Assembly: GCA_900317905.1 (NCBI GenBank)
Contig: ONIN01000003.1
Coordinates: 81,780 to 145,779, forward strand
Source of the DNA: an uncultured Eubacteriales bacterium
Lineage (GTDB): Bacteria > Bacillota > Clostridia > Oscillospirales > Oscillospiraceae
Direction: 5' to 3'
DNA length: 64,000 nucleotides
The notes under the pieces are model-generated. The model did not search any database and had not been told where the DNA came from. It worked only from the letters and a program-made list of their open reading frames with translations. Shown piece after piece: positions 23,933 through 43,966 of this stretch (within the stretch, counting starts at the first letter, position 1; each line of letters begins with the position of its first letter). Made by a program: the position numbers and the translations under genes.

Positions 23933-23961
23933 ATTATATCAATTCCTGTATGATACTGCAA
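23933..23961 (-). promoter_or_regulatory. Promoter of the giant surface-protein gene
   Basis: Minus-strand TTGCAG (23956-23961) and TATAAT (23933-23938) have a 17-base spacer, with a start ~35 bases before the ATG. Confidence 0.8.
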
Positions 23962-24024: not shown

Positions 24025-24061
24025 AAAAATCGCCTGTCTTTCCGAAGAAAAACAGACGATT
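24025..24061 (-). terminator. UNCG-capped hairpin, copy A: terminator of the cobalamin operon
   Basis: On the minus strand a ~14-bp stem (ATCGTCTG... with ...CAGGCGAT) is closed by a C-UUCG-G tetraloop and followed by TTTTTGTTTTGCC. It lies ~40 bases after the last gene of the 22-gene operon. It is one of five related hairpins in the window (others at 43995, 46243, 54571, 63540). Confidence 0.85.
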
Positions 24062-24100: not shown

Positions 24101-25216
24101 TCATTCGATCCCCCATTCATCCAGAGGCGCGAGCAGGTTTTGTGCCTGCGCGTAGTCACGGAGAGCCTCGTTGGCACGGTTCATGGAGCCGAAGGATTCC
24201 AGCGGGCAGAGCACATACCGGCACTGCAGCATCCGCTGCTTCGCCTCTTCAACCCGTTCCGGGCTGACGGGCTCGAAGGCCGCTTCCAGAATGACATGGG
24301 AAGCCAGTGCCTGAGCCACGGGCGTATCCAGGTCGTTCTCGTGCAGAACGCCTGCGGCAAAGGGGATGCCCATTCGATGGAGCCTCCGATAGATCGGGAT
24401 GCCGGCCCCGCCGCCGCCGATGACGAATACCTGCGGCGGGTCAGACAAACCCTCCGGCTCGACGCTGCCGAAGATCGGCTCGTAGCGCCCGCGCTCCACC
24501 CCGTAGAGCGCGCCGATATAATCGCCGGTGAAGATCTCCTCCGGCGTGCCGATGCGGTCGGCGCGGCCGTCACGGATGCAGACGATCTCGTCGGAGAACT
24601 TCTGGGCGAGATCCAGCTCATGGAGGCTCATGATGACGGCGATGTGCTTTTCCCGCGCGAGCATGCGCAGCAGGTGCAGAAATTCCAGCTTGTTGCGAAT
24701 ATCCAGAAACGAGGTCGGCTCATCCAGCACCAGGAGCTTCGGCTCCTGACACAGAGCCCGCGCCAGCATCACACGCTGGCGCTGCCCGTCGCTGATGCGC
24801 TCGAAGTCCTGCTCCGCGATCTCCTCCAGACCCACCAGCTCCATTGTCTCCTGCACCACCGCGCGGTCATGGGCAGACAGCGTCCCCAGTCTGCCGGTGT
24901 GGGGATAACGTCCGGCGGCGACCACGTCAAAGCAGCGCATGAGCTCCGGGCGCGGCCGCTCGGTCAGCACCGCGGCGCTCTCTCTGGCAAGCTCCGTCTG
25001 GCTGAGGCTTTTCAGCTCTCTGCCGGAGAGCCAAACTGCGCCGCCCAAAGGCTCGAGCTGGCGGATCAGCGTTTTGAGAATGGTGGACTTCCCCGCTCCA
25101 TTGGGGCCGATCAGCGTCAGGAGCTTCCCGGCCTCGGCCCGGAGCGTCAGTGCCGCAACAACGGCTTTTTCGCCATAGCCGACGGTGAGGCTGTCCGTGC
25201 GCAGAATGTCACTCAT
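24101..25216 (-). CDS. ABC transporter ATP-binding protein (FecE/BtuD type) with C-terminal extension
   Basis: This is the ATPase of the importer formed with the permease and binding protein encoded just upstream. Residues ~1-250 are a standard FepC/BtuD-like ATPase: Walker A GPNGAGKSTIL, signature ISDGQRQRVMLARAL, Walker B LLVLDEPTS, H-loop SLHELDLA. A further ~120 residues carry a Rossmann-like start (VFVIGGGGAGIPIYRRL) and an ESFGSMNRANEALRDY block; this extension is absent from E. coli BtuD and its role is unknown. It overlaps the permease stop by four bases (ATGA) and is the last gene of the cobalamin operon, before terminator A. The substrate, inferred from context, is cobalamin precursors or another metal-chelate complex. 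Confidence 0.88.
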   Translation of the reverse strand: MSDILRTDSLTVGYGEKAVVAALTLRAEAGKLLTLIGPNGAGKSTILKTLIRQLEPLGGAVWLSGRELKSLSQTELARESAAVLTERPRPELMRCFDVVAAGRYPHTGRLGTLSAHDRAVVQETMELVGLEEIAEQDFERISDGQRQRVMLARALCQEPKLLVLDEPTSFLDIRNKLEFLHLLRMLAREKHIAVIMSLHELDLAQKFSDEIVCIRDGRADRIGTPEEIFTGDYIGALYGVERGRYEPIFGSVEPEGLSDPPQVFVIGGGGAGIPIYRRLHRMGIPFAAGVLHENDLDTPVAQALASHVILEAAFEPVSPERVEEAKQRMLQCRYVLCPLESFGSMNRANEALRDYAQAQNLLAPLDEWGIE

Positions 25217-26229
25217 GCCATTTCACCCCGCTTTCTGGTCAGCAGCATCCAGATCACGACGGGCGCGCCGAACACCGCTGTCACCGAGCTGATGCTCAGC
25301 TCCGTCGGCGCAAAGAGCGTCCGCGCGATGAGATCGCAGAACAGGCAGAACACACTCCCGCCGAGAAAGCAGGCCGGCACCATCACCAGGGGCTTTGCCG
25401 TGGCAAACAGCCTTTTTACCAGATGCGGCACCGCGATGCCGACGAATGAGATGGGCCCCGCAAAAGCCGTGACGCAGGCGGCGAGGATGCTGGAAAGCAG
25501 GATCAGCGCCGTGCGAAACCGCGGCACGTTCACGCCCATGCTCCGGGCGTAGTTTTCGCCCAGCTGATAGGCCCCCATGGGCTTGGAGAGCAGCACCGCG
25601 CAGATGGTCGCCGGAATCACCGCCGCGGCGGAGGCGGCCACGTCGCCCCAGGCCACGCCCGAGAAGCTGCCCATGGACCAGTTGTGGAGGTTCACGATGT
25701 TCGAATCATCCGCGAAGGTGATCACAAACTCCGTCACCGCCGAGCAGATGTAGCCGATCATGACGCCGCAGACGATGAGCATGCCCATGCCGCGCAGCCG
25801 CCGCGAGGCCAGCAGAATGAAGCCCATGGAAACCATGGAACCCACAAACGCCGCCAGAATCAGCGTGGCGGAATGGATCGCGGTGCCCCGGCTGAGACAG
25901 AAGATCATCGCGAGGGCCACCGTAAGCTTCGCGCCCGAGGAGACGCCCAGCACATAGGGCCCGGCGATGGGGTTTAAGAAAAACGTCTGCAGCAGAAAGC
26001 CGGAGACCGCCAGCGCCCCGCCGAGGATCGCCGCAGAGAGCAGCCGCGGCATGCGGATGCTCCAGAGCACGCTGGCGCTCGTGTCCGCGCTGCGGGGAGA
26101 AAAGAGCGCGCGAAGCGCCTCATCGAGCGGGATGCGCGTGCTGCCGGCGAGCAGATTGCAGACCAGCAGCAATGCGAGCAGCCCCAGCAGGAGCGCAAAG
26201 CCCGCGGGGATTCGTTTTTCTCGGTTCAT
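25213..26229 (-). CDS. FecCD-family ABC transporter permease
   Basis: The 338-residue integral membrane protein has about nine to ten helices and matches the FecCD/BtuC family for siderophore, haem and cobalamin import. Typical blocks are SIRMPRLLSAAILGGALAVSG near the N-terminus, GPYVLGVSSGAKL, and GPISFVGIAVPHLVKRLF in the C-terminal half (the ATPase-contact loop region). It lies nine bases after the binding-protein gene and overlaps the ATPase start. Which chelate it moves cannot be read from sequence; its position inside the cobalamin operon favours a cobalt-containing tetrapyrrole or corrinoid. Confidence 0.9.
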   Translation of the reverse strand: MNREKRIPAGFALLLGLLALLLVCNLLAGSTRIPLDEALRALFSPRSADTSASVLWSIRMPRLLSAAILGGALAVSGFLLQTFFLNPIAGPYVLGVSSGAKLTVALAMIFCLSRGTAIHSATLILAAFVGSMVSMGFILLASRRLRGMGMLIVCGVMIGYICSAVTEFVITFADDSNIVNLHNWSMGSFSGVAWGDVAASAAAVIPATICAVLLSKPMGAYQLGENYARSMGVNVPRFRTALILLSSILAACVTAFAGPISFVGIAVPHLVKRLFATAKPLVMVPACFLGGSVFCLFCDLIARTLFAPTELSISSVTAVFGAPVVIWMLLTRKRGEMA

Positions 26230-26238
26230 ATCGTTTCC

Positions 26239-27342
26239 TCAGTTCAGCTTATGCAGAAATTGCAGGTTCTCCCCGTCTCCGGAGAGGATGCTGTGAAAGT
26301 CCGTGATCATCCCCGCGGCCGCGGAGGAGCGCTGGAACATACTCTGCTCCGTGCACCAGACATCTCCGGTCTGCACGGCCCGGAAGTCCGCCAGCAGCGG
26401 GCTCTGCGCGAGCAGAGCGTCCAGATCGGCAAGCTCTCCGGCTACGGTGCTGTTGTAGATCAGCACGTCCGCGTCCCTGGCCTGGGTGTAGAACGATTCC
26501 ATCTGGATCGTGACGGTGGAGAGCGCGGTGTCGCTCTCCGGCAGATCGGTGATGGCGGTCTCCCCGCCGGCCAGCTCGATCATCCGGGTGACATAGTCGG
26601 CGCTGCGCCGCACCACCACCGCGCCGCTGGGCGTGATGTGGAAGAAGGCCACCGTCTTTCCGCTGGGCTCCGCCGTCTCCACCGCCTGCACTGCCGCGGT
26701 CTGGGCGTTAAAGAAGGCCTCCGCCTCGCCCAGATGCCCGGTGAGCAGGCCGTAGAGCTTGATCCACTCCACCCGCCCCAGCGGGTGCGGCTCATAGCTG
26801 GAATACTCCACCATAAGGGGGAAGCCCAGGGAGACCAGCTTTTCCTGCACGGCGGGGGTGTGGAAGATCATCGTGTTCTCCACAATGAGATCCGTGCCCT
26901 CCTCCAGCAGAAGCTCAAAGTCCGGCGCGCTGTATTTTCCGGCGTAACGGATGCTGCCGTCATCCAGCGCCGTGCGCATGGAGTCCAGCCGCCAGTCGGC
27001 GGACTTCGTGCTGGTGAAAGCCACGCGGTCCAGCGCGCCGATCTGGTCGAAGAGATCGGCAGCGGAAGAGCTGGCGAGATACACCCGCTCCACCGGATAT
27101 CGGATCACCGGGAGCTCCGCGAAGGCCGCCGGCGCTTTTGCGTCCTGCTTTAAGAGCAGATACCGATCCGTACCGCCCAGGGTGAGCACGGCGGCGTCAT
27201 CGGTATAGTAATCCACAGTGAAGTTCTCCGCGTAGGAGAGCGGCATGGATCCCGTCGGATCCGCCGCAGCGCCCGTCTCCTGCGCGCCACAGGCGCACAG
27301 GAGCAGGCACAGCAGAAGAAGAAGAGAGAGCGCCCGTCTCAC
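26239..27342 (-). CDS. ABC transporter substrate-binding lipoprotein (iron/corrinoid type)
   Basis: The 367-residue lipoprotein has a signal peptide ending in a lipobox (LLCAC-G), so it is anchored outside the membrane. The rest resembles the BtuF/FepB class of two-lobed binding proteins: a first lobe with PVIRYPVERVYLASSSAADL, a lobe-linking helix, and a second lobe with TVAFFHITPSGAVVVRRSADY and SPLLADFRAVQTGDVWC. It captures ligand for the FecCD permease and ATPase that follow. The start codon overlaps the stop of the upstream NEAT-like lipoprotein gene by four bases, which suggests translational coupling and a shared ligand. Confidence 0.87.
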   Translation of the reverse strand: MRRALSLLLLLCLLLCACGAQETGAAADPTGSMPLSYAENFTVDYYTDDAAVLTLGGTDRYLLLKQDAKAPAAFAELPVIRYPVERVYLASSSAADLFDQIGALDRVAFTSTKSADWRLDSMRTALDDGSIRYAGKYSAPDFELLLEEGTDLIVENTMIFHTPAVQEKLVSLGFPLMVEYSSYEPHPLGRVEWIKLYGLLTGHLGEAEAFFNAQTAAVQAVETAEPSGKTVAFFHITPSGAVVVRRSADYVTRMIELAGGETAITDLPESDTALSTVTIQMESFYTQARDADVLIYNSTVAGELADLDALLAQSPLLADFRAVQTGDVWCTEQSMFQRSSAAAGMITDFHSILSGDGENLQFLHKLN

Positions 27343-28220
27343 GCCGCGGCCTCGATGCTGTCAGCGGAGAAGGTGAGCGTGTAGGCGATCTCGTGGGGCT
27401 CGCTCATGGCGACGGTGTCCGCAATGACGGCCATGGGGCGGTCAAAAACCGAGACCGGGATCTGGAACACGGAGTTGCCCTCGGTGTTCACCGGGAGGTA
27501 TTGGGCGTCGCCGATCTTCATGTAGTCATAGTGGGAGCTGCTCCACTGGATTTCGGCGGTGCAAAGGCCGTTTTCCACCGTGAGTTTGGCGGGAGAAGTG
27601 ACGCTGGCCTTGCCGCTGCCACCGGCGAGGGCGACGTCCACGGTGTATTCGCCGTCCGCGAGACCGAGGGACTCCGGCGTCACGATCACGCCGGGCCGAA
27701 AGGCCTCCAGTGGCAGAGAGTCCGCGCGAAAGCACAGCGTGCGGTCGTACCACAGTTCCTTGTTCTTGCTGAAGGCGGCGCAGCTCACGCCCGCGTCCAG
27801 CGCCTCCACCGGGATGGTGAACACATGGAGCCCGTCGCCGTCGATCTCCGGCGCCACGTAGTCGGCGCTGTCGGCTTTGGCGGCTTCCTCCGCCGTGCCG
27901 GGATAGACATAGAGATAGCTCTCGCTGTCCATCTTGATGGAGGCCGTCATCTTCCCGTCCTCCACGGTGAGATCACAGGCGTCGATGCGGAACATGGAAG
28001 AGCTGCAGTCCACCGCGACGGGATAGGTGCCGTCCACCAGATCCGTCGCAGGCACCGGCACCATGCCGGGCTGCACCACGTCCTCCACCTCGGTCATCTG
28101 GGAGGCGTCCGCCACCGCCAGCTTTTCAGAGCCGGCGGGGGGTTCGGTATTCTGTCCGCAGGCTACCAGGATCCCCAGCAGCAGCGCGAGGCAGAGCAGC
28201 AGAGATAGTTTCTGTTTCAT
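27339..28220 (-). CDS. Surface lipoprotein with two tandem NEAT-like domains
   Basis: The 293-residue protein has a lipoprotein signal (LGILVACG). Two homologous ~115-residue beta-domains follow: about 45-160 (DGTYPVAVDCSSSMFRID to LCFRADSLP) and 172-290 (DGEYTVDVALAGGSGKASV to LTFSADSIE). The pattern DGxYxV, AKLTVENGLCTAEIQW and a final YTLTF strand resembles haem-binding NEAT domains. The second repeat has HEIAY where NEAT domains carry the haem-ligand YxxxY; the first repeat lacks both positions. It sits between the lipoprotein chelatase and the ABC importer. Binding of a tetrapyrrole or corrinoid at the cell surface is an inference; I am moderately sure of the fold assignment only. Confidence 0.6.
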   Translation of the reverse strand: MKQKLSLLLCLALLLGILVACGQNTEPPAGSEKLAVADASQMTEVEDVVQPGMVPVPATDLVDGTYPVAVDCSSSMFRIDACDLTVEDGKMTASIKMDSESYLYVYPGTAEEAAKADSADYVAPEIDGDGLHVFTIPVEALDAGVSCAAFSKNKELWYDRTLCFRADSLPLEAFRPGVIVTPESLGLADGEYTVDVALAGGSGKASVTSPAKLTVENGLCTAEIQWSSSHYDYMKIGDAQYLPVNTEGNSVFQIPVSVFDRPMAVIADTVAMSEPHEIAYTLTFSADSIEAAA

Positions 28221-28243
28221 AGTTTTTTCCTTCTATATGTTTT

Positions 28244-29206
28244 TTACTTCACCTGATCCACGGCGGCCCGGGCGTGCTGCACGAAGATCTGCTGGATCTC
28301 CGGCAGCTGGCCGAGGCCCTCCACCACGCACTCGACCTCGTAGCCCGCGGCCTCGAAGATGCTCTTCCAGGAATCCTCCTCATCGCCGGCCATATCATTG
28401 TTGGCGTGGTCGCCCGCGACGATCATCAGCGGACGGAGCACGACGCGCTTGTAATTGCCCGCCTGCACCATGGCCAGCACATCCTCCACGGAGGGCTCGG
28501 CCTCCACGGTGCCGATGAAGTAGTTGTCATGGCCGCCGTCGGTGAGCACCTGCTGCATCTGAGCATAGACCGCGTTGGACTCGGCCTCGGTGCCGTGACC
28601 CATGAAGCAGATGGCGGTCTCGCCGTCGTCATACGCCGCGGTGGCGTTCACGATGATCTCCGCCACGGCGGCAAAGTCCTCGTCGCTGGTGAGCAGCGGC
28701 TCGCCCATGACGATCTGATCGAAGGCGTCGGCATAGGCGGCAAGCTCATTCGCCAGGTCGGTATACTCATAGCCGTGCATCAGGTGGGTCGGCTGCACCA
28801 CCAGCTTCTTGACGCCGTTGTCCACGGCGCGGTCCAGGGCCTCGGTCACATTGTCGATCGCGACGCCGTCACGGCTCTTCACGTGGTCGATGATGATCTG
28901 GCTGGTGAAGCCGCGGCGGACGCTCCAGTCCGGGAAGGCCTGATCCAGCGCGCCCTCGATGCCGCCGATGGTGAGACGACGACTGTCGTTGAAGCTGGTG
29001 CCGAAGCTGACGACCAGCAGTTCGTTTTCACCGATCTCGTCTCCGTTGCGGGGATCATCCAGGGAGGCGTCGCCGGTGTTGTAGTTTTCCTCGTCCTCCT
29101 CTACCGCGGCGGAGCCGGTGTCGGCAGGGGCGCTCTCCTTGCTGCCGCAGGCGCCCAGGCCCAGCAGCATGGTGAGCATGAGAATGGATGCCAGGATCTT
29201 TTTCAT
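28244..29206 (-). CDS. cbiK: Lipoprotein sirohydrochlorin cobaltochelatase (CbiK, exported form)
   Basis: CbiK inserts Co2+ into sirohydrochlorin, the entry step of anaerobic cobalamin synthesis. The 320-residue protein has the CbiK body (LLVVSFGTSFNDSRRLTIGGIE, VQPTHLMHGYEY with two His, ICFMGHGTEAESNAVY, VVLRPLMIVAGDHANNDMAG). It also has an N-terminal signal peptide with a lipobox (MLLGLGACG) and an acidic, disordered linker up to about residue 60. The chelatase therefore should sit on the outer face of the membrane. An exported CbiK (CbiKP) is known from Desulfovibrio vulgaris; here it is followed by a NEAT-like lipoprotein and an ABC importer. AGGAGG overlaps the cbiJ stop codon. Confidence 0.88.
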   Translation of the reverse strand: MKKILASILMLTMLLGLGACGSKESAPADTGSAAVEEDEENYNTGDASLDDPRNGDEIGENELLVVSFGTSFNDSRRLTIGGIEGALDQAFPDWSVRRGFTSQIIIDHVKSRDGVAIDNVTEALDRAVDNGVKKLVVQPTHLMHGYEYTDLANELAAYADAFDQIVMGEPLLTSDEDFAAVAEIIVNATAAYDDGETAICFMGHGTEAESNAVYAQMQQVLTDGGHDNYFIGTVEAEPSVEDVLAMVQAGNYKRVVLRPLMIVAGDHANNDMAGDEEDSWKSIFEAAGYEVECVVEGLGQLPEIQQIFVQHARAAVDQVK

Positions 29207-29218: not shown

Positions 29219-29962
29219 CTAAAAATGATTGGTCTGTATATTGAGGCACAAGGCCAGAATATCCTCGAATGATTCACCCGTCTCCTCCGGGCGGCGGAGC
29301 AGAATAAGTGCTGCGCCCGTGGTCTTCGCCGCCGCGGCCTTCTCGGGAAAGCCGCCGGGGGCGCCGCCGTCCTTTGTGACGAGAAGCCGGATCTGAAACT
29401 GCCGCAGGATCGCTTCGTTCAGCTCCTGCGAGAAGGGCCCCTGCATGGCGATGATGTTTTTGCGCGGCACGCCAATGGCCTCGCAGGCATCCAGCGCCGC
29501 GTGGGACGCCAGCACCCGCGGATAGAGCCGCGCCGGGTCGATCGCCGCGAAGGCCGGAAGCTCCTTGGCTCCGGTGGTCAGGAGAATGTTTCCCTCGCGT
29601 TCCGTCAGATAGGCAGCAGCCTCCGCCGCGGTGTCAAAGACCATGGCGCCCTCCGCTTCGCTCTCGCGGCGGAGCAGACGATGATACGGCGTGCCGACGG
29701 CCTCGCACGCCTCCCGCACAGAGACACTGATGTGGGATGCATATGGGTGCGTGGCGTCCACGCAGAGATCGGCATTTTGCAGCAACGCCTGCTTTTCCAG
29801 CGCCGTCATCGGCCCGACACGCACCCTGAGACGGTCTCCCGCCGGCTGGGTCTCGCCGCCGTATTCCGTGGCGACGCAGACGGTCACCTCCGCGCCGGCA
29901 GCCGCCATGCGCTGGGACAGCTCGCGGCCCTCCGTAGTGCCGCCGAAGATGATGAGCTTCAT
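29219..29962 (-). CDS. cbiJ: Precorrin-6A / cobalt-precorrin-6A reductase
   Basis: This NAD(P)H-dependent reductase reduces the macrocycle of cobalt-precorrin-6A to 6B. The 247-residue protein starts MKLIIFGGTTEGRELSQRMA, the family's nucleotide-binding motif, and contains DATHPYASHISVSVREACEA and LLVTKDGGAPGGFPEKA, both CbiJ/CobK hallmarks. It overlaps the cbiH stop by four bases and precedes cbiK by 12 bases. Confidence 0.93.
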   Translation of the reverse strand: MKLIIFGGTTEGRELSQRMAAAGAEVTVCVATEYGGETQPAGDRLRVRVGPMTALEKQALLQNADLCVDATHPYASHISVSVREACEAVGTPYHRLLRRESEAEGAMVFDTAAEAAAYLTEREGNILLTTGAKELPAFAAIDPARLYPRVLASHAALDACEAIGVPRKNIIAMQGPFSQELNEAILRQFQIRLLVTKDGGAPGGFPEKAAAAKTTGAALILLRRPEETGESFEDILALCLNIQTNHF

Positions 29963-30687
29963 GTGCGGTACCCCCTGGGCGTGACCATCCGCTCTCCGAT
30001 CTGAAGCGTCTGCGACGAGCCGATGAACACTGTCGTGAACATGTCCGCCTCCGTCTCGCAGAGCTCAGCGAGGGTGAGAATGCGCACACACTCCCCTTCT
30101 CTGCCGATGTTTCTGACCATGCCGCAGACCGTCTCCGGCCCTTTGGCGCGGAGCAGGATCTCGCAGGCCCGGCGGAGATAGTCCTTCCGGTGGCGGGACG
30201 CGGGGTTATACAGGCAGATGGCGAAATCGCCCGCCGCCGCGGCAGAGAGCCGCCTTTCGATTACGCTCCAATCGGTGAGCCGATCGGATAGCGAAATGAC
30301 GCAGAAATCATGCCCCAGTGGCGCGCCCAGCAGCGCCGCCCCCGACAGCGCCGCCGTGACGCCCGGGACGATCTCCACCGTGACGCCGGGGTAGTCCGGC
30401 TGCAGCTCCAGCACCGGGGCGGCCATGCCGTAGACCCCCGCGTCGCCGCTGCAGACCAGGGCGACGGTGCGCCCGCTCCGGGCGAGCTCCAGCGCATAAC
30501 GGCAGCGCTCGATCTCCCCGGTCATGCCGGTGGTATAGATTACTTTCTCGGGAAACCGTGCGCGCACCAGCTCCACATACAGCGTATAGCCGCAGAGCAC
30601 CTCCGCACGCGCAAGCGTGGTTTCGGCGGCGTCCGTCAAATACGCCGGCGCGCCGGGGCCGATGCCCACCACAAACAGCGTTCCCAT
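29959..30687 (-). CDS. cbiH: Cobalt-precorrin-3B C17-methyltransferase
   Basis: This SAM-dependent methyltransferase of the corrin pathway methylates C17 with ring contraction. The 242-residue protein has the tetrapyrrole-methylase fold: VGIGPGAPAYLTDAA at the start, ALVCSGDAGVYGMAAPVLEL for the SAM site, EIVPGVTAALSGAALLGAPL, and FAICLYNPASRHRKDYLRRA, which separates CbiH/CobJ from its paralogues. The ATG at 30687 begins two bases before the cbiG stop, and the gene ends in a four-base overlap with cbiJ. Confidence 0.93.
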   Translation of the reverse strand: MGTLFVVGIGPGAPAYLTDAAETTLARAEVLCGYTLYVELVRARFPEKVIYTTGMTGEIERCRYALELARSGRTVALVCSGDAGVYGMAAPVLELQPDYPGVTVEIVPGVTAALSGAALLGAPLGHDFCVISLSDRLTDWSVIERRLSAAAAGDFAICLYNPASRHRKDYLRRACEILLRAKGPETVCGMVRNIGREGECVRILTLAELCETEADMFTTVFIGSSQTLQIGERMVTPRGYRT

Positions 30688-30688
30688 G

Positions 30689-31657
30689 TTACCAGCTCCA
30701 GTCCAGCTCCGGCTGCGTGACCGCAATGGCGAAGGTCACACCGTCGGAGGCGTATTTTTTCTCAAGAATTTCGCCGCCGGAGGCGCACACGGCGCTGCGC
30801 TCGCAGACGTTGTCCACGCCCACGGTTTCGCACACGAAGTCGGAGGGAGCGAAGCTGCCCTCTGTGGCTTTCAGCGCGTCTGCGGTGAAAAACCGCACCG
30901 GCCATCCGCGGCATTCGCAGAATTTGAGCAGTCCCGTCTCGTCCCGCTTGCGGTCGATGGAGGCGGCGGCGGAGATCGCCTCCGGTAGCACACGGCGCTC
31001 GAAGCAGAAGCGGCGGAACACGGTCTCGATCTGCTCTGCCGAAACACCCCGACGGCAGCCAATGCCGAGGGTGAGACAGCGCGGCACCAGCTGCAGCGCG
31101 CCGCTGGCCTCCGGCCGGACGGAAACGATCACGTCAGCCTCCGAACCGATGCGCACGCCCTCGGGCGGCTCGCCTTCGACGGGAAACGGGCAGTCCACCG
31201 CAACGGTCTCCCCGGCCAGCAGCTTTGCCGAGACGCGCTTGATCCGCTCCGGCTGCAGAACGGTCATGCCCTGGGTCTTTGCCCAGAGATCCACGGCGAA
31301 CACGCCGCGCAGATCCGTCGCCGTGGTTATCACGGCAGTGGCCTGCAGCTTTGCTGCGATCTCCTCTGCCAGCGCGTTCGCGCCGCCGAGATGCCCCGAG
31401 AGGATCGGGATCACAAACCGCCCCGTCTCATCCGCGACGAGCACGGCGGGGTCGGTGGCTTTGCTTTTCAAATGCGGGGCGATCGCCCGCACGGCGATGC
31501 CCGCCGCGCCGACGAAAAGGAGCGCGTCAGAATCGGCAAACCGCGCCGCCGTCCAGTCGGCCAGCGACACGTTCCCGCCGATGCGCGTGACCGGCGCGCC
31601 GAGGCGTTTTGCGAGCGCCTCGCCCCGGTCGGTGAAGGCCGCAATCGCAAGCTTCAC
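30689..31657 (-). CDS. cbiG: Cobalt-precorrin-5A hydrolase
   Basis: CbiG opens the delta-lactone of cobalt-precorrin-5A and releases acetaldehyde, a step specific to the anaerobic pathway. The 322-residue protein shows the N-terminal VKLAIAAFTDRGEALAKRL, the central FVIPILSGHLGGANALAEEI motif, and the C-terminal CbiG domain (CLTLGIGCRRGVSAEQIE, the VGVDNVCERSAVCAS block). I chose the GTG at 31657, which overlaps the cbiD stop as GTGA. All parts of the usual three-segment architecture are present. Confidence 0.92.
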   Translation of the reverse strand: MKLAIAAFTDRGEALAKRLGAPVTRIGGNVSLADWTAARFADSDALLFVGAAGIAVRAIAPHLKSKATDPAVLVADETGRFVIPILSGHLGGANALAEEIAAKLQATAVITTATDLRGVFAVDLWAKTQGMTVLQPERIKRVSAKLLAGETVAVDCPFPVEGEPPEGVRIGSEADVIVSVRPEASGALQLVPRCLTLGIGCRRGVSAEQIETVFRRFCFERRVLPEAISAAASIDRKRDETGLLKFCECRGWPVRFFTADALKATEGSFAPSDFVCETVGVDNVCERSAVCASGGEILEKKYASDGVTFAIAVTQPELDWSW

Positions 31658-32793
31658 TTTGCAGCCCCCCAATCCCTGAGCATGGTCTCGGCCGGTTCGG
31701 TCATGCCGAGCAGGCCGTATTGATTCGAAAACGTGATCGCGCCGACGGTGAACGCATCCCCCGCGCGGCGCCCCAGATGGCGCTGCATGGCGGCCATGAG
31801 CGACGCGGTCACCGGCTCACGCAGTCCGGCGTCCTCCAGCACGGCGAGGCAGCCGTCCGTCGTGACCTGCCGCATCAGCGCGCGGCAGACTTCCGTCGAC
31901 GCGCCGCAGAGCGCCGCGTGCGCGGTGATGCTCTCGAGCCGCGCGTCGGCAAAGCGCGAGTGCGTGTTCATCACGCCGGCGGCGAGCTTCACGAGCTTGC
32001 CGAAGTGGCCGACGAGGAGCACGGACCCAAAGCCTTCGAGCGCCGCGATGTCCAGCGCGTCACCGATGAAGTTCGAGCACTTCACGACCGGAACGGACAC
32101 GAGCGCGCTGTAGGTCTCGCGCAGGAAGTCGAGCCCGTAGTTGCCGGGTGTGAGGATCAGCCGCTTTTCGCCGCTCGCGGCCGCCTGACGCAGCTGGACC
32201 GCGATCGTGTCCACCAGCGCCTGCTCGCTCATCGGCTCCACGACGCCGGACGTGCCGAGGATCGAAATGCCGCCCTCCACGCCGAGCATGGGGTTGAAGG
32301 TCTTTCGCGCCGCCGCAGCGCCATCCGGCACGGAGATCACGGCAGACAGCCCGGCGGAATATCCGGTCTCCGCGCAGACCGCCTCCAGCGCAGCGCGAAT
32401 CATCTGCCGCGGCACGGTGTTGATCGACGCCGCGCCGACGCTCTGGTCGAGCCCCGGCTTCGTCACGCGGCCAACGCCCTCGCCGCCGTCGATGGAGATT
32501 CCCTCCGGCGTCTTTTCGACGCGCGCGCAGACGAGCAGACCGTTTGTCACGTCCGGATCGTCGCCCGCGTCCTTGCGCACGGCGCAGAAGGCGGTCTCGC
32601 CCTCCATGCGGCAGATCTCCGGCGCGATCTCTGCGGCCCAGCCTTTCGGCGTGCGCAGCGAGAGCGACTCCGGCGCCTGCCCCGTGAGCAGCAGCTCGGC
32701 CGCGCCCGCTGCCGCGAGGGCGGCGCAGGTGCCGGTGGTATAGCCGCAGCGCAAAAGTCTTGTGCCGCTGCGGACGTAATGTTCAAACGCCAT
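31654..32793 (-). CDS. cbiD: Cobalt-precorrin-5B C1-methyltransferase
   Basis: CbiD methylates C1 of the corrin ring in the anaerobic pathway. The 379-residue protein has the diagnostic N-terminal GYTTGTCAALAAAGAAELLL, GGEGVGRVTKPGLD, the LDVGEGISILGTSG-like GGISILGTSGVVEPMSE, and LLVGHFGKLVKLAAGVMNTHS. The ATG at 32793 overlaps the preceding Cys-rich gene by 11 bases and has an AAAGGA site. A longer start would overlap that gene heavily. Confidence 0.94.
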   Translation of the reverse strand: MAFEHYVRSGTRLLRCGYTTGTCAALAAAGAAELLLTGQAPESLSLRTPKGWAAEIAPEICRMEGETAFCAVRKDAGDDPDVTNGLLVCARVEKTPEGISIDGGEGVGRVTKPGLDQSVGAASINTVPRQMIRAALEAVCAETGYSAGLSAVISVPDGAAAARKTFNPMLGVEGGISILGTSGVVEPMSEQALVDTIAVQLRQAAASGEKRLILTPGNYGLDFLRETYSALVSVPVVKCSNFIGDALDIAALEGFGSVLLVGHFGKLVKLAAGVMNTHSRFADARLESITAHAALCGASTEVCRALMRQVTTDGCLAVLEDAGLREPVTASLMAAMQRHLGRRAGDAFTVGAITFSNQYGLLGMTEPAETMLRDWGAAK

Positions 32794-33064
32794 CGTCGTC
32801 CCGTCCTTTCGCCGCCAGCGCCGCAATCTCCGGAAAGCGCGCGAGCACGGCGCCGTAGTTCTCCCGCCGGTGGGGAAAGGCGCAGTGTTCACAGCTCTTC
32901 ACGCCGCTGGGGAGATAGACGCACGCACCGCCGCAGTCCTTCCCCAGGGCGTAGAGCGGGCAGTAGCAGAACAGGCAGTTGAAATCCGCCTCCGGCACGC
33001 CCTCGTGGCAAGGGAAAAACTCGCAGTCCCGGTGCTGAAAAAAGGCATATCGCTTCTCGTTCAT
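32783..33064 (-). CDS. Cysteine-rich small-domain protein of cobalamin operons
   Basis: The 93-residue soluble protein has at least nine Cys (HRDCEFFPCHE, FNCLFCYCPLYALGKDCGGAC, VKSCEHCAFPH), matching the cysteine-rich small domain family (PF04071). That domain is found alone or fused to cobalamin enzymes in anaerobes. The Cys pattern suggests bound metal, perhaps cobalt, zinc or an Fe-S cluster, but no function is established. It sits between cbiC and cbiD, one base after the cbiC stop. Confidence 0.8.
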   Translation of the reverse strand: MNEKRYAFFQHRDCEFFPCHEGVPEADFNCLFCYCPLYALGKDCGGACVYLPSGVKSCEHCAFPHRRENYGAVLARFPEIAALAAKGRDDDGV

Positions 33065-33065
33065 A

Positions 33066-33740
33066 TCAGTTCCAGCCTCTCGCGGCGGGATCCAGCAGAT
33101 CCGCCGCAGAATAGATGAGCGCGTTCAAAATCGCCGCCGCCACGCTGCTGCCGCCCTTGCGCCCCATGGCGGCGATGACCGGCACGTTGTGCTTCCGGCA
33201 GACGGAGACGATGCGCTCCTTGCTTTCCACCACGTTCACAAACCCCACCGGTACGGCCACGACCAGGGCGGGCCGCAGCCCGGCTTCGATCTCCTCGGCG
33301 ATCTGAAACAACGCGGTGGGCGCGTTGCCCACGGCGAGGATGGCCCCCGGCAGCGTCTCGGCCGCGTGGCGCATGGCGGCAACGGCCCGGGTGGTGCCGT
33401 CGCGCTTCGCTTTTTCCGCAACGGCAGGGTCCGCCATGAAGCAGAACGCCTCGCCGCCGAGTTTTTTCAGCCCGGGACGGCTGACGCCGGAGAGGGCCAT
33501 GTTCGTGTCTGTGACGATGGGCGTACCCTTCGTGAGCGCCTCGGAGGCCAGAGCCGCCGCCTTCGGTGAGAAGGTCAGCGTCTCGAGATACGCAAAATCC
33601 GCGGTGGCGTGGATGACCCGCAGGATCACCGGAGCGTTTTCTTCTTTGAGGGTGACGCCGAGACCCGCGATCTCCTGCCGGATGATCTGCATGCTGCTGC
33701 GCTCAATGTCGCCGGGCAGTCGGTGTTCCGCCATGGTCAA
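33066..33740 (-). CDS. cbiC: Precorrin-8X / cobalt-precorrin-8 methylmutase
   Basis: CbiC moves the C11 methyl to C12, giving the cobyrinate ring. The 224-residue protein shows RVIHATADFAYLETLTFS with the catalytic His, PIVTDTNMALSGVSRPGL, AILAVGNAPTALFQIAEEI and FVNVVESKERIV. Its start overlaps the 3' end of cbiP by 38 bases; a second Met at 33734 is an equally good start. Confidence 0.94.
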   Translation of the reverse strand: MTMAEHRLPGDIERSSMQIIRQEIAGLGVTLKEENAPVILRVIHATADFAYLETLTFSPKAAALASEALTKGTPIVTDTNMALSGVSRPGLKKLGGEAFCFMADPAVAEKAKRDGTTRAVAAMRHAAETLPGAILAVGNAPTALFQIAEEIEAGLRPALVVAVPVGFVNVVESKERIVSVCRKHNVPVIAAMGRKGGSSVAAAILNALIYSAADLLDPAARGWN

Positions 33741-35205
33741 ATTCCTCCATTGCTTTGTAAATTGCGTTCAGATCGATGCTCTGCCGCACCGCGTCCGCCA
33801 GCAGATCATACTGCCGCTGCCGATAGGCGGCGCGGTCGCTTGGCGCGGCTGCGGGGATGTCGATCCCCTTTCGCGCCGCGAGCCAGCTTGCGAGTTTTAC
33901 GGTGAGCTCCCCCGTGTCGAAGAGCCCGTGCAGATAGGTGCCGAAGACATTGCCCCGCACCGCGCCGTCCGCGCTGCCGTCCGAAAAGCGGCAGAAGGGT
34001 TCGGCGTCGCTTCGCTCCGTGCGGCCCATGTGGATCTCATACCCCTCAATCGCCGCGCCGGAAAACGGCTCGGAAACGACCGTCGCCCTCCGGCGGGTGC
34101 GGGTTTTCTGCGTGGAAAACACCGTCTCGCACGGGAGGAGACCCAGCCCTTCAAAGCTGCCCTTCCGCTCCGTGCCGTCGGGATCGCGCAGCGTTTGCCC
34201 CAGCATCTGATAGCCGCCGCAGACGCCGAGGATCGGGGTCACATCCGCACACGCTTTGATCGCGTCCGCGAGTCTCGTCTCCCGCAGCCACAGCAGATCC
34301 GGGATCGTGCTCTTCGTGCCGGGCAGGATGATCAGATCCGGCCTGCCGAGCTGGGATGCGTCCGAGACGTACCGCACGCCCAGCGCCGGGTGCTCCTCCA
34401 GCGGGGAGAAATCCGTAAAGTTCGAGATGTGCGGCAGGCGGATGACGGCGATATCGATGGCTTTTGCCGCCGCGTTTTGCTGCAGCCGCGGCGAGAGGCT
34501 GTCCTCATCGTCGATGTCCGCGTTGGTATATGGCACGACGCCCAGCACCGGCACGCCGGTGAGGTCTTCCAGCTGCTGGAGTCCCGGCTCCAGCAGCGAA
34601 ACGTCGCCGCGGAATTTGTTGATGATCGTGCCGATGACCCGTTTGCGCTCCTCCCGCTGCAGCAGGGCCACCGTGCCGTAAAGCTGGGCAAAGACGCCGC
34701 CGCGGTCAATGTCGCCCACCAGAAGCACCGGCGCGTCCACCAGCTCGGCCAGCCCCATGTTCACGATGTCGTCCGCGCGGAGGTTGATCTCCGCCGGAGA
34801 GCCCGCGCCCTCGATGACGATGATGTCGTTTTCCGCGGCGAGGCTGTGGTAGGCCGCGAGGATATCGGGAATGAGGGAGCGCTTCATGCGAAAGTAGTCC
34901 CGTGCTTCATAGTGCCCGCGCACCTCACCGTTTACGATGAGCTGGCTGCCCATGTCGCTGGAGGGTTTTAAAAGGATCGGGTTCATACGCACGTCGCAGG
35001 TCAGTCCCGCGGCCTCGGCCTGGGCGGCCTGTGCCCGGCCCATCTCCAGCCCGTCGGGGGTCACATAGCTGTTGAGCGCCATGTTCTGGCTCTTGAACGG
35101 CGCCACGCGCCAGCCGTCCTGCAGGAAGATGCGGCAGAGCGCCGTGACCAGCAGGCTCTTGCCCGCACCGGACATGGTTCCCTGCACCATGATGCACTTT
35201 GCCAT
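33703..35205 (-). CDS. cbiP: Cobyric acid synthase (glutamine-hydrolysing)
   Basis: This enzyme amidates four side chains of adenosylcobyrinic acid a,c-diamide. In the 500-residue protein the N-terminal P-loop amidoligase domain (IMVQGTMSGAGKSLLVTALC, GDIDRGGVFAQLYGTVALL) is followed by a class-I glutamine amidotransferase domain with the nucleophile Cys in ILGVCGGYQMLG and His in YEIHMGRT/YLHGLFD. Two adjacent ATGs exist; GGAGG lies seven bases before the second (35205), which I use. The start overlaps the cobD stop. Confidence 0.95.
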   Translation of the reverse strand: MAKCIMVQGTMSGAGKSLLVTALCRIFLQDGWRVAPFKSQNMALNSYVTPDGLEMGRAQAAQAEAAGLTCDVRMNPILLKPSSDMGSQLIVNGEVRGHYEARDYFRMKRSLIPDILAAYHSLAAENDIIVIEGAGSPAEINLRADDIVNMGLAELVDAPVLLVGDIDRGGVFAQLYGTVALLQREERKRVIGTIINKFRGDVSLLEPGLQQLEDLTGVPVLGVVPYTNADIDDEDSLSPRLQQNAAAKAIDIAVIRLPHISNFTDFSPLEEHPALGVRYVSDASQLGRPDLIILPGTKSTIPDLLWLRETRLADAIKACADVTPILGVCGGYQMLGQTLRDPDGTERKGSFEGLGLLPCETVFSTQKTRTRRRATVVSEPFSGAAIEGYEIHMGRTERSDAEPFCRFSDGSADGAVRGNVFGTYLHGLFDTGELTVKLASWLAARKGIDIPAAAPSDRAAYRQRQYDLLADAVRQSIDLNAIYKAMEEFDHGGTPTARRH

Positions 35206-36245
35206 CATTCCACCTCCCGGAGCGCTTGGAGCAGCTGATCGTTTTCTTCCGGTTTCCGGATCGCCGTCCGGTACCAGCCGGGACACAGCCCCGGAAAATC
35301 GCGGCAGTCCCGCAGCAGGATCCCCTTTCGGCGCAGCTTTTTTGCAAGGTCTGTGTCCGCGCTGCAGAACAGCAGGTAATTCGCCTCACCCGGCAGGACG
35401 CGAAAGCCCATGCCGGAGAGCGCACGGAACATCCGCCCGCGCTCCGCGCGGAGAAACGCTCTCACTTCGTTTTCGTAATCCTGTTCCTGCAGCGCGGCAA
35501 TTCCCGCCGCCTCAGCTGGAACAGAGACCGGCCAGGGCTGGCCGATGTCCTGCAGTGCCTGCGCCGTCTCCGCGCTGCCGCAGAGGGCATAGCCGAGGCG
35601 CAGCCCCGCCATGGCGAAGGTTTTCGTAAACGCGCGCAGGATGATGAGGTTCGGGTGATCCCTGAGCGACGAAACCAGCGAATACCGCCCGGGGTCCTCC
35701 GTCAGGTCGAGAAAACACTCGTCCACGATCAGCGCAGCGCCCCGCTCCGCGCATTGCCGCAGCAGCGCCGGCTCGGTGAGCAGTCCCGTGGGGTTGTTCG
35801 GATTGCAGAGAAAGACGGCGTCTGTCTCCGGCGTGATCGCGTCCGGAAATGCCGCCGGCAGATGGAAGTCCGCCGTGAGCGGAAAGCGCTCCACTTTGCA
35901 GCCCACCGAACGCAAGGATCTCTCATACTCCGAGAAGGTCGGCGCCGGGATCAAAGCCCGCTTCGGCTGCAGAAGGCGCGCAAGCCGGTCGATGAGATCC
36001 GCCGCGCCCGCGCCGCAGACGATCTGCGCCGGGTCCACCCCGTGCCGCTCCGAGAGCGCCATACGCAGGCGGCGGCAGTTGGGGTCGGGATAGCGCTCGG
36101 CATCGCGCATCGCCTCGACCGCCGCCTGATACACCCGCTCGGGCATACCCAGTGGGCTCAGAGATGCGGAAAAATCGAGGGGCAGAGCGCCGTGCTCAAG
36201 GGCATAGGCGGCCCAGTCGCCGCCGTGGATTCGTTCCATGGTCAA
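35205..36245 (-). CDS. cobD: L-threonine-O-3-phosphate decarboxylase
   Basis: This PLP enzyme of the aminotransferase class I fold makes (R)-1-aminopropan-2-ol phosphate, the linker between corrin ring and nucleotide loop. The 346-residue protein has the N-terminal block HGGDWAAYALEHGALPLDFSASLSPLG, CNPNNPTG, the Asp of ALIVDECFLDL and the Schiff-base Lys in ILRAFTKTFAMAGLRLGY. It overlaps cbiB by four bases upstream and cbiP downstream. Confidence 0.92.
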   Translation of the reverse strand: MTMERIHGGDWAAYALEHGALPLDFSASLSPLGMPERVYQAAVEAMRDAERYPDPNCRRLRMALSERHGVDPAQIVCGAGAADLIDRLARLLQPKRALIPAPTFSEYERSLRSVGCKVERFPLTADFHLPAAFPDAITPETDAVFLCNPNNPTGLLTEPALLRQCAERGAALIVDECFLDLTEDPGRYSLVSSLRDHPNLIILRAFTKTFAMAGLRLGYALCGSAETAQALQDIGQPWPVSVPAEAAGIAALQEQDYENEVRAFLRAERGRMFRALSGMGFRVLPGEANYLLFCSADTDLAKKLRRKGILLRDCRDFPGLCPGWYRTAIRKPEENDQLLQALREVE

Positions 36246-37207
36246 TCTCCGAAAATCAGTTTCATGCCGCCGAAGAGGGCGAGCGCCAGAAGCGTCCCCG
36301 CCGATTCCATGCGGCAGACGCGGTCAATGTCCCCCGGGGTGATGGGCCGGTCGTCGTCTCCGATGAAGGGCTTATCATGCCGCACGCCGAAGTAGCTGGC
36401 CGGGCCGCAGAGCCGCAGGTGCAGCGCCCCCGCCGCCGCGGCCTCGCACTGGCCGGAATTCGGGCTCGCGTGATTGCGCCGGTCCCGCCGCCAGATGCGC
36501 AGGGCGTTCCCGGCGTCCTCGCCCGTGAAATGCGCCGCCGCAATCAGCAGCAGGGCGGAGAGCCGCGCGGGGATGTAATTCACCAGATCATCCAGCCGTG
36601 CCGCGGCGCGGCCGAAGTACAGATAGGTTTCATTTTTATAGCCCACCATGCTGTCCATGGTGTTCACGGCCTTGTAGCCCAGGGCCAGCGGCGCGCCGCC
36701 GAGCATCAGATACAGCATCGGCGCGATGACCCCGTCGGAGAAATTCTCCGCCACGGTCTCCACCGCGGCGCGGGCCACGCCCTCCGCCGAGAGTTCTGCC
36801 GTGTCGCGTCCGACGATGCGCGCGACGGCCTGCCGCGCCGCGTCAAGGGAATCGTGCTCGAGCTTGCTCTGCACGTTCTTTGCCTCGTCCCGCAGATTCT
36901 TCGCCGCGAGCACCTGCCAGCTCCAGACGGTGGCCAGCGCAAAGGCGGCGAGGGGCGATCGTCTGCGCACCAGACGCAGGATCGCGGCGCCGGAGAGCAC
37001 CGTGCCGACACTGAGCGCCGCCGCCATCACCGTGCCGGCCGCAAGCTCGCCCTGTTTTGTTTTCGGAAAGCGGGCCCGGAGCGCCGTTTCCAGCGCGCGG
37101 ACGCCCTTCCCCATCCAGACCACGGGGTGGATCGGCGTGAGCGCCGCCGGATCGCCCAACAGGCAATCGAGACCATAGCCGCAGAGCGCGGCGGGGAGTG
37201 TTTTCAT
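36242..37207 (-). CDS. cbiB: Adenosylcobinamide-phosphate synthase
   Basis: This multi-span membrane protein attaches aminopropanol phosphate to adenosylcobyric acid. The 321-residue protein has several hydrophobic helices and the family motifs YGLDCLLGDPAALTPIHPVV, KLEHDSLDAARQAVARIVGRD, AAVETVAENFSDGVIAPMLY and YKAVNTMDSMVGYKNETY. The ATG at 37207 forms an ATGA overlap with the cobC stop; a longer start would run back through cobC. Confidence 0.93.
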   Translation of the reverse strand: MKTLPAALCGYGLDCLLGDPAALTPIHPVVWMGKGVRALETALRARFPKTKQGELAAGTVMAAALSVGTVLSGAAILRLVRRRSPLAAFALATVWSWQVLAAKNLRDEAKNVQSKLEHDSLDAARQAVARIVGRDTAELSAEGVARAAVETVAENFSDGVIAPMLYLMLGGAPLALGYKAVNTMDSMVGYKNETYLYFGRAAARLDDLVNYIPARLSALLLIAAAHFTGEDAGNALRIWRRDRRNHASPNSGQCEAAAAGALHLRLCGPASYFGVRHDKPFIGDDDRPITPGDIDRVCRMESAGTLLALALFGGMKLIFGD

Positions 37208-37788
37208 CTTACAAAGCTTACCTCTTTGATCACATCGAGCCGCGAAGGCCAATTCGTGTCCTCCAGCAGCCAGCCGGAGGCGCAGGGCGTCTGCCACTTA
37301 AAATAGTCCTTTTCCGGGTGTCCCCAGCGGGAGAGCGCCGCCATCTGCGTGCCGCCGTGGGCGACGATCAGGAGATCGGAGGCGCCTTCTGCTCGCTCCC
37401 GCTCCACGAGGGCGGCGAAGGCGGTCTGCACACGCGCGGAAAAGCCCGCTCGCTCTTCGCCGTCCGGGCATTTGCCGACGCAGCCGCCGTCCACCCACGC
37501 GCGATAAGCAGGGTCGTTCTCCATCTCCCACCAGCCGCGGCCCTCGAAGGCGCCGAAGTCCATCTCGCGCAATTCCGGCACGGAAATCTTCTCCGCGCGC
37601 GGAAAGAGCACCTCCGCCGTCTCCCGGGCGCGCAGCAGCGGCGAATGATAGACGCGCGCGAAGCGGTCATCCGGCCGCAGGGCGAGCCTCCCCGCCTCAC
37701 AAAGCGGCGTGTCGGTGACGCCCTGATAGCGCTTTTCTTCCCCCAGGGCGGTGAGGCCGTGGCGGATCAGCCAGATGCGCATGGCCAC
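37204..37788 (-). CDS. cobC: Histidine phosphatase, probable alpha-ribazole phosphatase
   Basis: The 194-residue phosphoglycerate-mutase-type phosphatase has the catalytic RHG motif (IWLIRHGLTALGEEKRYQG), YHSPLLRARETAEVL and the second His in LLIVAHGGTQMAALS. In a cobalamin operon this family normally removes the phosphate from alpha-ribazole 5'-phosphate or adenosylcobalamin 5'-phosphate. The assignment rests on context as much as on sequence. It overlaps the short CobU-like gene at its start. Confidence 0.85.
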   Translation of the reverse strand: MAMRIWLIRHGLTALGEEKRYQGVTDTPLCEAGRLALRPDDRFARVYHSPLLRARETAEVLFPRAEKISVPELREMDFGAFEGRGWWEMENDPAYRAWVDGGCVGKCPDGEERAGFSARVQTAFAALVERERAEGASDLLIVAHGGTQMAALSRWGHPEKDYFKWQTPCASGWLLEDTNWPSRLDVIKEVSFVR

Positions 37789-38111
37789 TCCCCTTTCAGC
37801 AGCTGCGGCAGCCCGCAGCAGACGCGGATGACGGTGTCGGCCCGTTCGGCCAGCAGGCAGGAAAGCCTTCCCGCCGCCTCGCGCTGTGCCCGCGCGCGGG
37901 CGTCCATCGGCACCACGCCGCCGCCGATCTCGGTGGCGATCACGATCTCCCGCGCCGAGAGCTGATCGGCCAGCGCCTCCAGATCCGCGCCGGGGTCAAC
38001 ATTTTGCACGTCCCAGACGGCGCGGTTTTTCAGCTCCGCTTCCGAGAGACCCAGCGCGGATCGGATATAGGCGCGTTTTCCCGCATAGAGCGGGCCGGTG
38101 ATGAAAATCAT
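37767..38111 (-). CDS. Short CobU-like P-loop protein
   Basis: The 114-residue protein begins MIFITGPLYAGKRAYIRSAL, a P-loop in the same position as in CobU. It ends with RADTVIRVCCGLPQLLKGEW, very like the C-terminus of the full CobU in this operon (VAEVVCGLPNVLKGALPW); a conserved ATEIGGGVVPMD block lies between. It lacks most of the central region of CobU, including the segment with the guanylylated His. It may be a second adenosylcobinamide kinase or a partner subunit. The function is uncertain. It overlaps cobS and cobC. Confidence 0.7.
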   Translation of the reverse strand: MIFITGPLYAGKRAYIRSALGLSEAELKNRAVWDVQNVDPGADLEALADQLSAREIVIATEIGGGVVPMDARARAQREAAGRLSCLLAERADTVIRVCCGLPQLLKGEWPCASG

Positions 38112-38869
38112 AATAATCTCTCCAAGTATTCAAACAGGCACAGCGTCAGCGCCATCCAAAGCTCCGACGCCTGCAGGAACCAGCCGCAGAGATCACCGGA
38201 GAGCCCGGAAAAATCCACCGTCGCCATGCGGTAACAGCGCCAGAACACCAGCGCCGCGGGCAGGAGCATGACCGCGCCGCCGGTAAGGATAAGCCCAGCG
38301 CTCAAAAAAACCGTGAGCACGATGAGCGCATGGCGCAGCCTGGTCCGATCCGCCGCCTCTGCGAAGCTGCGGGCAAGTCCGCTTCCCTCTGCGAGGGGGA
38401 AACAGGCCAGCGAAAGCGCGGAGAGTGTGCGGCTCAGCAGGAAGAGACACACGATCGCCCAGCCGCGAAAGTCCGGCAGGCTCGTCCAGACGGCGAGGCT
38501 CACGATGAGATAGACCCCGATCCGGATCGCCGCGAAGGCGCCGAGGTGCGGATCTTTCAAGATCTCGCGCTTTTTTTCAGGTTCGGCGTGGCTCGCCTGG
38601 GCGTCCGCCACGTCAGCGTAGCCGTCCATGTGGATCCCGCCAGTGAGCAGGATCGGCAGCACCGCAAGCCCTGCGCCCCGCGCAAGCAGCGGCAGCCCCA
38701 GAAGCCCGCAGAGGTAGACCCACAGGCAGCACACGCCGCCGATCACGGCGCCGACAAGCGGGAAAGCCAGCAGCGACCAGCGCATGTTCTCCCGCGTCCA
38801 TTCGATCTGCGGCATCGGCAGCGCCGAGTACATGGAAAAGGCCACGATGATCGTTTGCAGCACTACCAT
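38108..38869 (-). CDS. cobS: Adenosylcobinamide-GDP ribazoletransferase (cobalamin synthase)
   Basis: This integral membrane enzyme joins adenosylcobinamide-GDP and alpha-ribazole (phosphate), the last assembly step. The 253-residue protein has about six helices and the hallmark LLTGGIHMDGYADVADAQAS, where Asp residues bind Mg2+, followed by KDPHLGAFAAIRIGVYL. It overlaps cobU by seven bases and the short CobU-like gene by four. Confidence 0.93.
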   Translation of the reverse strand: MVVLQTIIVAFSMYSALPMPQIEWTRENMRWSLLAFPLVGAVIGGVCCLWVYLCGLLGLPLLARGAGLAVLPILLTGGIHMDGYADVADAQASHAEPEKKREILKDPHLGAFAAIRIGVYLIVSLAVWTSLPDFRGWAIVCLFLLSRTLSALSLACFPLAEGSGLARSFAEAADRTRLRHALIVLTVFLSAGLILTGGAVMLLPAALVFWRCYRMATVDFSGLSGDLCGWFLQASELWMALTLCLFEYLERLL

Positions 38870-39378: not shown

Positions 39379-39382
39379 ACAA

Positions 39383-43696: not shown

Positions 43697-43710
43697 AACC
43701 TTCACTCCAA

Positions 43711-43769
43711 ATAAAAATGCCGTGTCCGCCAAAAAAACGGGCACGGCAAACGGGCGCAGTGACTGCGCC
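43711..43769 (-). terminator. Terminator and adjacent hairpin of the cobalamin riboswitch expression platform
   Basis: On the minus strand TGCCGTG-CCCG and CGG-CACGGCA arms (43718-43748) surround a T-rich loop, followed by TTTTTATTT just before the cbiF ribosome site. Upstream lies a perfect GGCGCAG/CTGCGCC hairpin with a three-base loop (43753-43769). This is the likely off-state structure when cobalamin is bound. Confidence 0.75.
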
Positions 43770-43774
43770 AATTA

Positions 43775-43937: not shown

Positions 43938-43966
43938 ATTATAGCCTGTTTTTCGGGATTTGTCAC
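43938..43966 (-). promoter_or_regulatory. Promoter of the cobalamin operon
   Basis: Minus-strand GTGACA (43961-43966) and TATAAT (43938-43943) are spaced by 17 bases, with a start near 43931 just ahead of the riboswitch. Confidence 0.8.

Follow-up and report, generated by a model that had tools for sequence, protein, structure and literature searches.

Why should a cobalamin operon end in genes for a lipoprotein chelatase, a NEAT-like surface protein and an importer? The question is raised by a stretch of 64,000 nucleotides (the window) on contig ONIN01000003.1 of an uncultured Eubacteriales bacterium, whose assembly (the window genome, G000) has 2.23 Mb in 38 contigs and is 79.6% complete. 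Five coupled genes at 24101-29206 on the minus strand close the cobalamin operon at its 3' end. In gene order they are:

28244..29206, minus strand: CbiK-family chelatase with a lipoprotein signal (PF06180, 270.3 bits, cut-off 26.2)
27339..28220, minus strand: lipoprotein with two predicted NEAT-fold domains (predicted structure and structure comparison)
26239..27342, minus strand: substrate-binding lipoprotein of the importer (PF01497)
25213..26229, minus strand: FecCD-type permease (PF01032, 268.9 bits)
24101..25216, minus strand: ATPase of the importer, extended at its C-terminus by about residues 245-371 (PF00005)

The gaps between genes from cbiJ onward are 12, 23, -4, 9 and -4 bases. The linked set of CbiK, NEAT-like protein, binding protein and importer, which a sequence-only reading of this DNA had described, was thus confirmed from the genes of the window.

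We propose, at a probability of about 0.58, that this module serves to salvage a ready-formed tetrapyrrole under cobalamin control. Its ligand, captured by the NEAT and binding proteins after release from other organisms, would be an isobacteriochlorin: sirohydrochlorin, the C20-methylated form of it, or either of these as a metal complex. CbiK at the surface would insert or exchange the metal, yielding the cobalt complex, and the FecCD importer would carry this complex in for CbiH, CbiF, CbiG, CbiD, CbiJ, CbiET, CbiC and CbiA. By this route the cell would need neither precorrin-2 synthesis of its own nor a cobaltochelatase in the cytoplasm. The surface step may be cobalt insertion, metal exchange or metal removal. 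The linkage, the export signals, the predicted NEAT fold, the vitamin B12 control in relatives, the missing early genes and the absence of other CbiK or CbiX chelatases are read from sequence; the ligand, the direction of the metal reaction and the order of transfer are what we infer.

The module is conserved, gene order included. A scan of a species-genome collection with an exported-CbiK alignment gave at least 579 related stretches, and the best 80 (the named loci) were examined; most are labelled as gut or rumen Clostridia, Ruminococcus flavefaciens isolates among them. Loci carry L numbers and genomes G numbers below. Rare co-occurrence of the genes in relatives had been set beforehand as the outcome that would count against the arrangement. 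This outcome was not observed: of the 56 loci with at least 6 kb downstream, 51 have all four partners of CbiK (NEAT-like protein, binding protein, permease and ATPase) in a span of 5.5 kb; the module is incomplete in L132, L167, L169, L186 and L187. At least three cobalamin genes are also present in 29 of 49 loci of 15 kb or more. Chance or mis-annotation was ruled out as an explanation by this conservation.

The window CbiK has an N-terminal lipobox, and its proposed export is supported by its relatives: among the CbiKs of the 80 loci, 66 score as lipoproteins, 10 have another signal peptide, two appear exported by eye and two are cut by contig ends, and surface-layer (S-layer) domains occur in two other exported proteins, L063 and L066. 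Among 150 surveyed genomes from the family of the window genome, 52 gave CbiK matches, of which 51 were above the cut-off, and 60 regions around these matches were analysed for neighbours and N-termini. Proteins were called exported or cytosolic by a script rule and by inspection of the N-termini. L066, with no clear signal peptide in the chosen frame, was placed in the exported class because it has S-layer domains; G071, with CbiK pieces at contig ends only, and G086, with a match below the cut-off, were counted as not exported. On this basis 19 of the 150 genomes hold the exported class, which bears a signal peptide or lipobox. The cytosolic class begins straight at the catalytic domain and often adjoins cbiC. 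In a tree of 90 CbiK domains (52 exported, 38 cytosolic), which took every third of the named loci (27), a single split with support 0.735 parts the two classes, and L091 alone is misplaced. Among 25 exported domains, E147 is conserved in 25, H204 in 24 and H267 in 23; domains shorter than 150 residues were excluded from this alignment and from the tree. One Glu and two His presumably form the metal site, after Salmonella CbiK. The best solved relatives of the window protein are FetB (9b86, 157.8 bits), Salmonella CbiK (1qgo, 151.4 bits) and 2xvx (126.6 bits). Entry 2xvx is presumably the periplasmic CbiK of Desulfovibrio, and we take FetB and IhtB to be one and the same protein.

Exported CbiK is also joined to other domains. 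Two CbiK domains share one protein in L055, L059, L064 and L072. A NEAT-like stretch follows CbiK in the same frame in L063, L066 and L068, and a Pfam NEAT domain lies inside the double-CbiK protein L064. The double-CbiK proteins of L059 and L064 (G011 and G111) are long and secreted, and L064 adds a weak copper-amine-oxidase N-terminal match. At two loci (L071, 461-2334; L073, 4250-6255) a NEAT-like protein stands directly after a cytosolic-type CbiK, a mix of both classes.

The second gene had been read as a lipoprotein with two NEAT-like domains, and the predicted structure together with structure comparison backs a NEAT fold. By sequence, the window protein scores 27.7 bits against PF05031, below the cut-off of 32.8, and its profile matched no solved structure at an expectation value (E) of 1; 27 of 33 relatives match PF05031 at E of 0.01 or less. 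Domain 2 keeps an [H/Y]xxxY motif at H276-Y280. Its first residue is His in 29 and Tyr in four of the 33 relatives, and Y280 is kept in all 33.

The family profile of the binding protein is nearest by sequence to Lmo2184 (E 3e-10), with IsdE third (E 0.0013); judged by sequence profile, it lies nearest to the Gram-positive haem-type binders. No BtuF-like match was listed for this profile, and no BtuF entry stands among the 50 matches listed in the fold comparison. The best NCBIfam model for the permease is BtuC, and the NCBIfam corrinoid ATPase model aligns with residues 6-335 of the ATPase, both below their cut-offs. The first part of the ATPase's C-terminal extension of about 125 residues falls within that alignment; in L062 and L067 the ATPase has merely about 256 residues. 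ATPase and CbiD occupy one open frame in L043 (G031), L051 (the same as L147, in G070), L116, L123 and L159, with a PF04071-like domain in between in L051. The stretch checked between the two holds no start codon in L116 and L123, and the joins in L043 and L051 hold GTG codons only. L159 may be two genes, because its linker has an ATG.

The control of these genes was examined in 21 loci, chosen by hand and not at random from about 140. An RF00174 cobalamin riboswitch precedes exported CbiK in 17 of them (4/7, 7/7 and 6/7 in three batches), and seven riboswitch-bearing loci (L121, L140, L149, L150, L154, L160 and L172) have no other cobalamin gene matched nearby. At the curated cut-offs the window itself gave no Rfam match. 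Its sister operon in G149 has an RF01482 match (27.6 bits, cut-off 50) where the window has a weak riboswitch match. In L051 (10549-11521) a nickel/cobalt riboswitch stands before the gene just upstream of the module, which by eye resembles a cation-efflux gene. The operon position, the cobalamin riboswitches and the ATPase-CbiD fusions support the earlier suggestion that the imported compound feeds the cytoplasmic Cbi enzymes.

A need for such a feed is suggested by the early tetrapyrrole genes. Among the 150 family genomes, CbiD was found in 47, HemB in 38, HemC in 39, CobA above its cut-off in 49 and CbiL in 45. For the 47 genomes with CbiD, of which 17 carry exported CbiK (the carriers) and 30 do not, HemB is present in 5 of 17 against 26 of 30, HemC in 5 of 17 against 27 of 30, and CobA in 6 of 17 against 28 of 30; kinship is handled in these comparisons through genus labels only, and the Fisher tests carry no correction for relatedness. 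When the CbiD genomes are limited to those at least 95% complete, a hand tally gives HemB in 3 of 9 carriers and in 17 of 18 others. CbiD without any of HemB, HemC and CobA occurs in 12 genomes; exported CbiK is present in 11, and the twelfth, G122, shares its genus label with the carrier G056. The 12 exported-CbiK genomes with CbiD but no HemB bear 12 different genus labels. Under the label g56, the carrier G055 is without a HemB match and G121, whose CbiK is cytosolic, has one. A second set, the first 50 of the 80 named-locus genomes, was also searched for HemB, and no match was present in 40, one of them G070, which is common to both sets (L147 was taken as G070 and L169 as G119). The module-bearing Ruminococcus flavefaciens isolates YL228, Y1 and ND2009 are among those that gave no HemB match. 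HemB, HemC and CobA were not found in the genome-wide search of the 79.6% complete window genome, in which HemA, HemL and HemD were not searched.

Few carriers have another chelatase of this class. A search for CbiX in 23 genomes gave matches only inside CbiK proteins already found, and exported CbiK is therefore the sole CbiK/CbiX-type chelatase in 13 of the 17 carriers (CobN was not searched); G011, G027, G041 and G098 have a cytosolic CbiK in addition. CbiM, considered as a sign of separate cobalt entry, was matched in 44 of the 150 genomes. The matches are strong, in frames of 355-394 residues, in G003, G032, G070, G073 and G112, which hold exported CbiK, and strong long-frame matches also occur in genomes without CbiD. 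They are weak in G029, G098 and G111, and G000, G043, G055, G056 and G149 have none.

Cobamide makers without early tetrapyrrole genes are known. An excerpt of Shelton et al. (PMC6461909) describes tetrapyrrole precursor salvagers, mostly Firmicutes, and shows their use of 5-aminolevulinate; it names no uptake system. The module carriers resemble these salvagers, and since CobA is also missing in most of them, their need would lie later in the path.

The closest known system is Iht of Porphyromonas. The excerpt of PMC10913741 lists for P. gingivalis a CbiK-like lipoprotein IhtB, a binding protein IhtC, a permease IhtD and an ATPase IhtE, all of which have counterparts in the module. The sequence-only reading had not recognised the four-part set as described. 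Iht qualifies that statement as a described relative, and the NEAT part still sets the module apart, as that excerpt names no NEAT protein for Iht. Iht further differs in its TonB receptor IhtA, and the function described for it there is the uptake of haem/iron rather than supply of a B12 pathway. No TonB-dependent receptor was found among the genes of the operon; no genome-wide search for one was made.

These likenesses raise a rival account in which the module acquires haem or iron in the manner of Iht or Isd, the NEAT protein and CbiK bind haem (CbiK as a dechelatase or a haem binder), and its position among the cobalamin genes has no functional meaning. Among solved structures CbiK scores best with FetB, a haem-binding protein, the NEAT fold and the binding-protein profile point to haem proteins, and Iht itself is described as a haem/iron system. 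However, among 112 genomes without HemB, exported CbiK is present in 12 of the 16 with CbiD and in 1 of the 96 without; exported CbiK therefore follows cobalamin synthesis and not the loss of haem genes. Exported CbiK without CbiD was found in G073 and G119. The cobalamin riboswitches and ATPase-CbiD fusions also argue against this account, and in the excerpt of PMC10913741 IhtB itself is reportedly not Fur-regulated. Haem uptake as the main role was lowered by the riboswitches and by the CbiD and HemB genome counts, and we regard it as unlikely.

We consider equally improbable a BtuFCD-like importer whose substrate is cobalamin, cobinamide or cobyrinate, CbiK and the NEAT protein serving as binders of corrinoid or cobalt. 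It would fit the cobalamin riboswitches before CbiK and the best-scoring permease and ATPase models, but it leaves the conserved chelatase site without a role and offers no reason for carriers to retain the genes of ring contraction when nothing supplies the ring. The lack of a listed BtuF-like match for the binding-protein profile speaks weakly against it. The earlier note had proposed capture of a tetrapyrrole or a corrinoid. A ring before contraction is now favoured, and a finished corrinoid is less likely, because most carriers combine ring-contraction genes with a lack of early tetrapyrrole genes.

Very improbable is an export-and-return loop, in which the cell secretes its own sirohydrochlorin, CbiK loads cobalt outside and the complex is re-imported: it fits genomes that have HemB, HemC, CobA and exported CbiK only, such as G031 and G074, and could serve the few carriers still holding early genes, but 11 of the 17 carriers have none of the three and therefore nothing of their own to secrete.

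Several observations weigh against the salvage of a preformed tetrapyrrole. HemB is kept in 5 of the 17 carriers and in 10 of the 50 genomes of the second set. Conversely, G058, G071, G110 and G122 have CbiD, no HemB and no CbiK classed as exported. G058, G110 and G122 are also without a HemC match, and CobA occurs together with a cytosolic CbiK in G058 and G110; in these three, sequence may be missing or another salvage route may be used. The same-genus genomes G069 and G129 are without both CbiK and CbiD. Two of the 80 named loci, L132 and L169, hold exported CbiK without any partner, and no cobalamin riboswitch precedes CbiK in L051, L063, L066 and L135 (4 of the 21 loci). The fold comparison of the binding protein matches binders of siderophores, of haem and of molybdate without singling out a ligand. 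Finally, the window CbiK scores 228.7 bits against the NCBIfam cobaltochelatase equivalog NF047852, below its cut-off of 400, so its substrate is not to be taken from the family name.

CbiL raises a further difficulty. It was not found in the window genome, 79.6% complete, by genome-wide CbiL and PF00590 searches, so the complete corrin-ring pathway that marks a precursor salvager was not found there, and Co-sirohydrochlorin alone would therefore not suffice. The four places matching the tetrapyrrole-methylase family PF00590 are the ribosomal RNA methyltransferase RsmI and, all three by their position in the operon, CbiF, CbiH and CbiE. G149 and G070 have the same set, G031 has CobA in addition and G098 has three places. 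In G000, G149, G070, G031 and G098, CbiF, CbiH and CbiE are present with no recognisable C20-methyltransferase CbiL. CbiL is present in 12 of the 17 carriers, and cbiL lies within the stretch in 4 of 15 named loci holding cbiD, cbiF, cbiG and cbiH; in the others it may lie elsewhere. The branch without CbiL either takes up a C20-methylated ring, uses an unrecognised enzyme or does without the step.

Two other known systems resemble the module. The Isd/Shp haem relays likewise combine a NEAT-fold surface protein, a class III binding lipoprotein, a FecCD permease and an ATPase. In contrast, the module genes sit with cobalamin genes and under cobalamin riboswitches in 17 of 21 loci, and their YxxxY-like motif is mostly His-first; we know of no exported CbiK in relays of the Isd/Shp type. 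The Desulfovibrio CbiK (presumably 2xvx) is likewise an exported CbiK-family chelatase, but the window CbiK is nearer to FetB and Salmonella CbiK by the scores above, and the Desulfovibrio protein is not known to have NEAT or importer partners.

Each part of the module is of a kind already known; what is new is how they are combined and the role suggested for them. The literature searched contained no paper with both a cobaltochelatase and a NEAT domain, and the titles and opening abstracts among the matches listed contained no description of the module or of the uptake route. The surface set could explain how bacteria unable to build the ring themselves nevertheless produce B12, probably by catching, metallating and importing a precursor, and would provide a concrete uptake system for cobamide makers without early tetrapyrrole genes. 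If this is true, many Clostridia of gut and rumen carry out the cobalt-insertion step of B12 synthesis extracellularly, isobacteriochlorins become a shared good in the gut, and the FetB/Iht system of Porphyromonas may be read differently.

An older study is said to have called the corrin genes of P. gingivalis, present without a precorrin-2 source, an enigma. In the excerpt of PMC6461909, P. gingivalis is without the steps to precorrin-2, and a review, as excerpted, has FetB exchanging porphyrin metals (PMC13402209). A tentative extension, which we hold to be doubtful, would answer this puzzle: neighbours release free isobacteriochlorins, cells load cobalt on their surface and import the complex, lineages without CbiL take a ring at the level of factor III or skip C20 methylation, and Iht/FetB is the same device.

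The module belongs to a single run of minus-strand genes, which spans from a promoter-like site (43966-43938) to a terminator-like hairpin (24061-24028). The remaining features of the run are:

43938..43966, minus strand: promoter-like site 5' of the operon, GTGACA-17-TATAAT (11 of 12 consensus positions match in a scan; one found against a shuffle mean of 0.4)
43798..43927, minus strand: probable variant cobalamin riboswitch before cbiF (RF00174, 18.7 bits, which is below the 31.5-bit cut-off; E 0.0071 over 301 bases)
29219..43771, minus strand: cobalamin genes cbiF, cbiET, cbiA, cobT, cobU, cobS, a CobU-like gene, cobC, cbiB, cobD, cobQ, cbiC, a PF04071 gene, cbiD, cbiG, cbiH and cbiJ, with neither cbiL nor cobA among them (NCBIfam and Pfam scans)
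24028..24061, minus strand: terminator-like hairpin 3' of the last gene (scan; 15 pairs, then a T run)

A near-alike terminator-like hairpin at 43995-44032, also on the minus strand, lies before the operon, so that two such hairpins flank it. An open frame of 4163 residues (11470-23961, minus strand), by eye a secreted repeat protein, adjoins the operon. At 46323-47438 on the minus strand, one frame has overlapping matches to a nickel-insertion family and a flavin mononucleotide oxidoreductase family.

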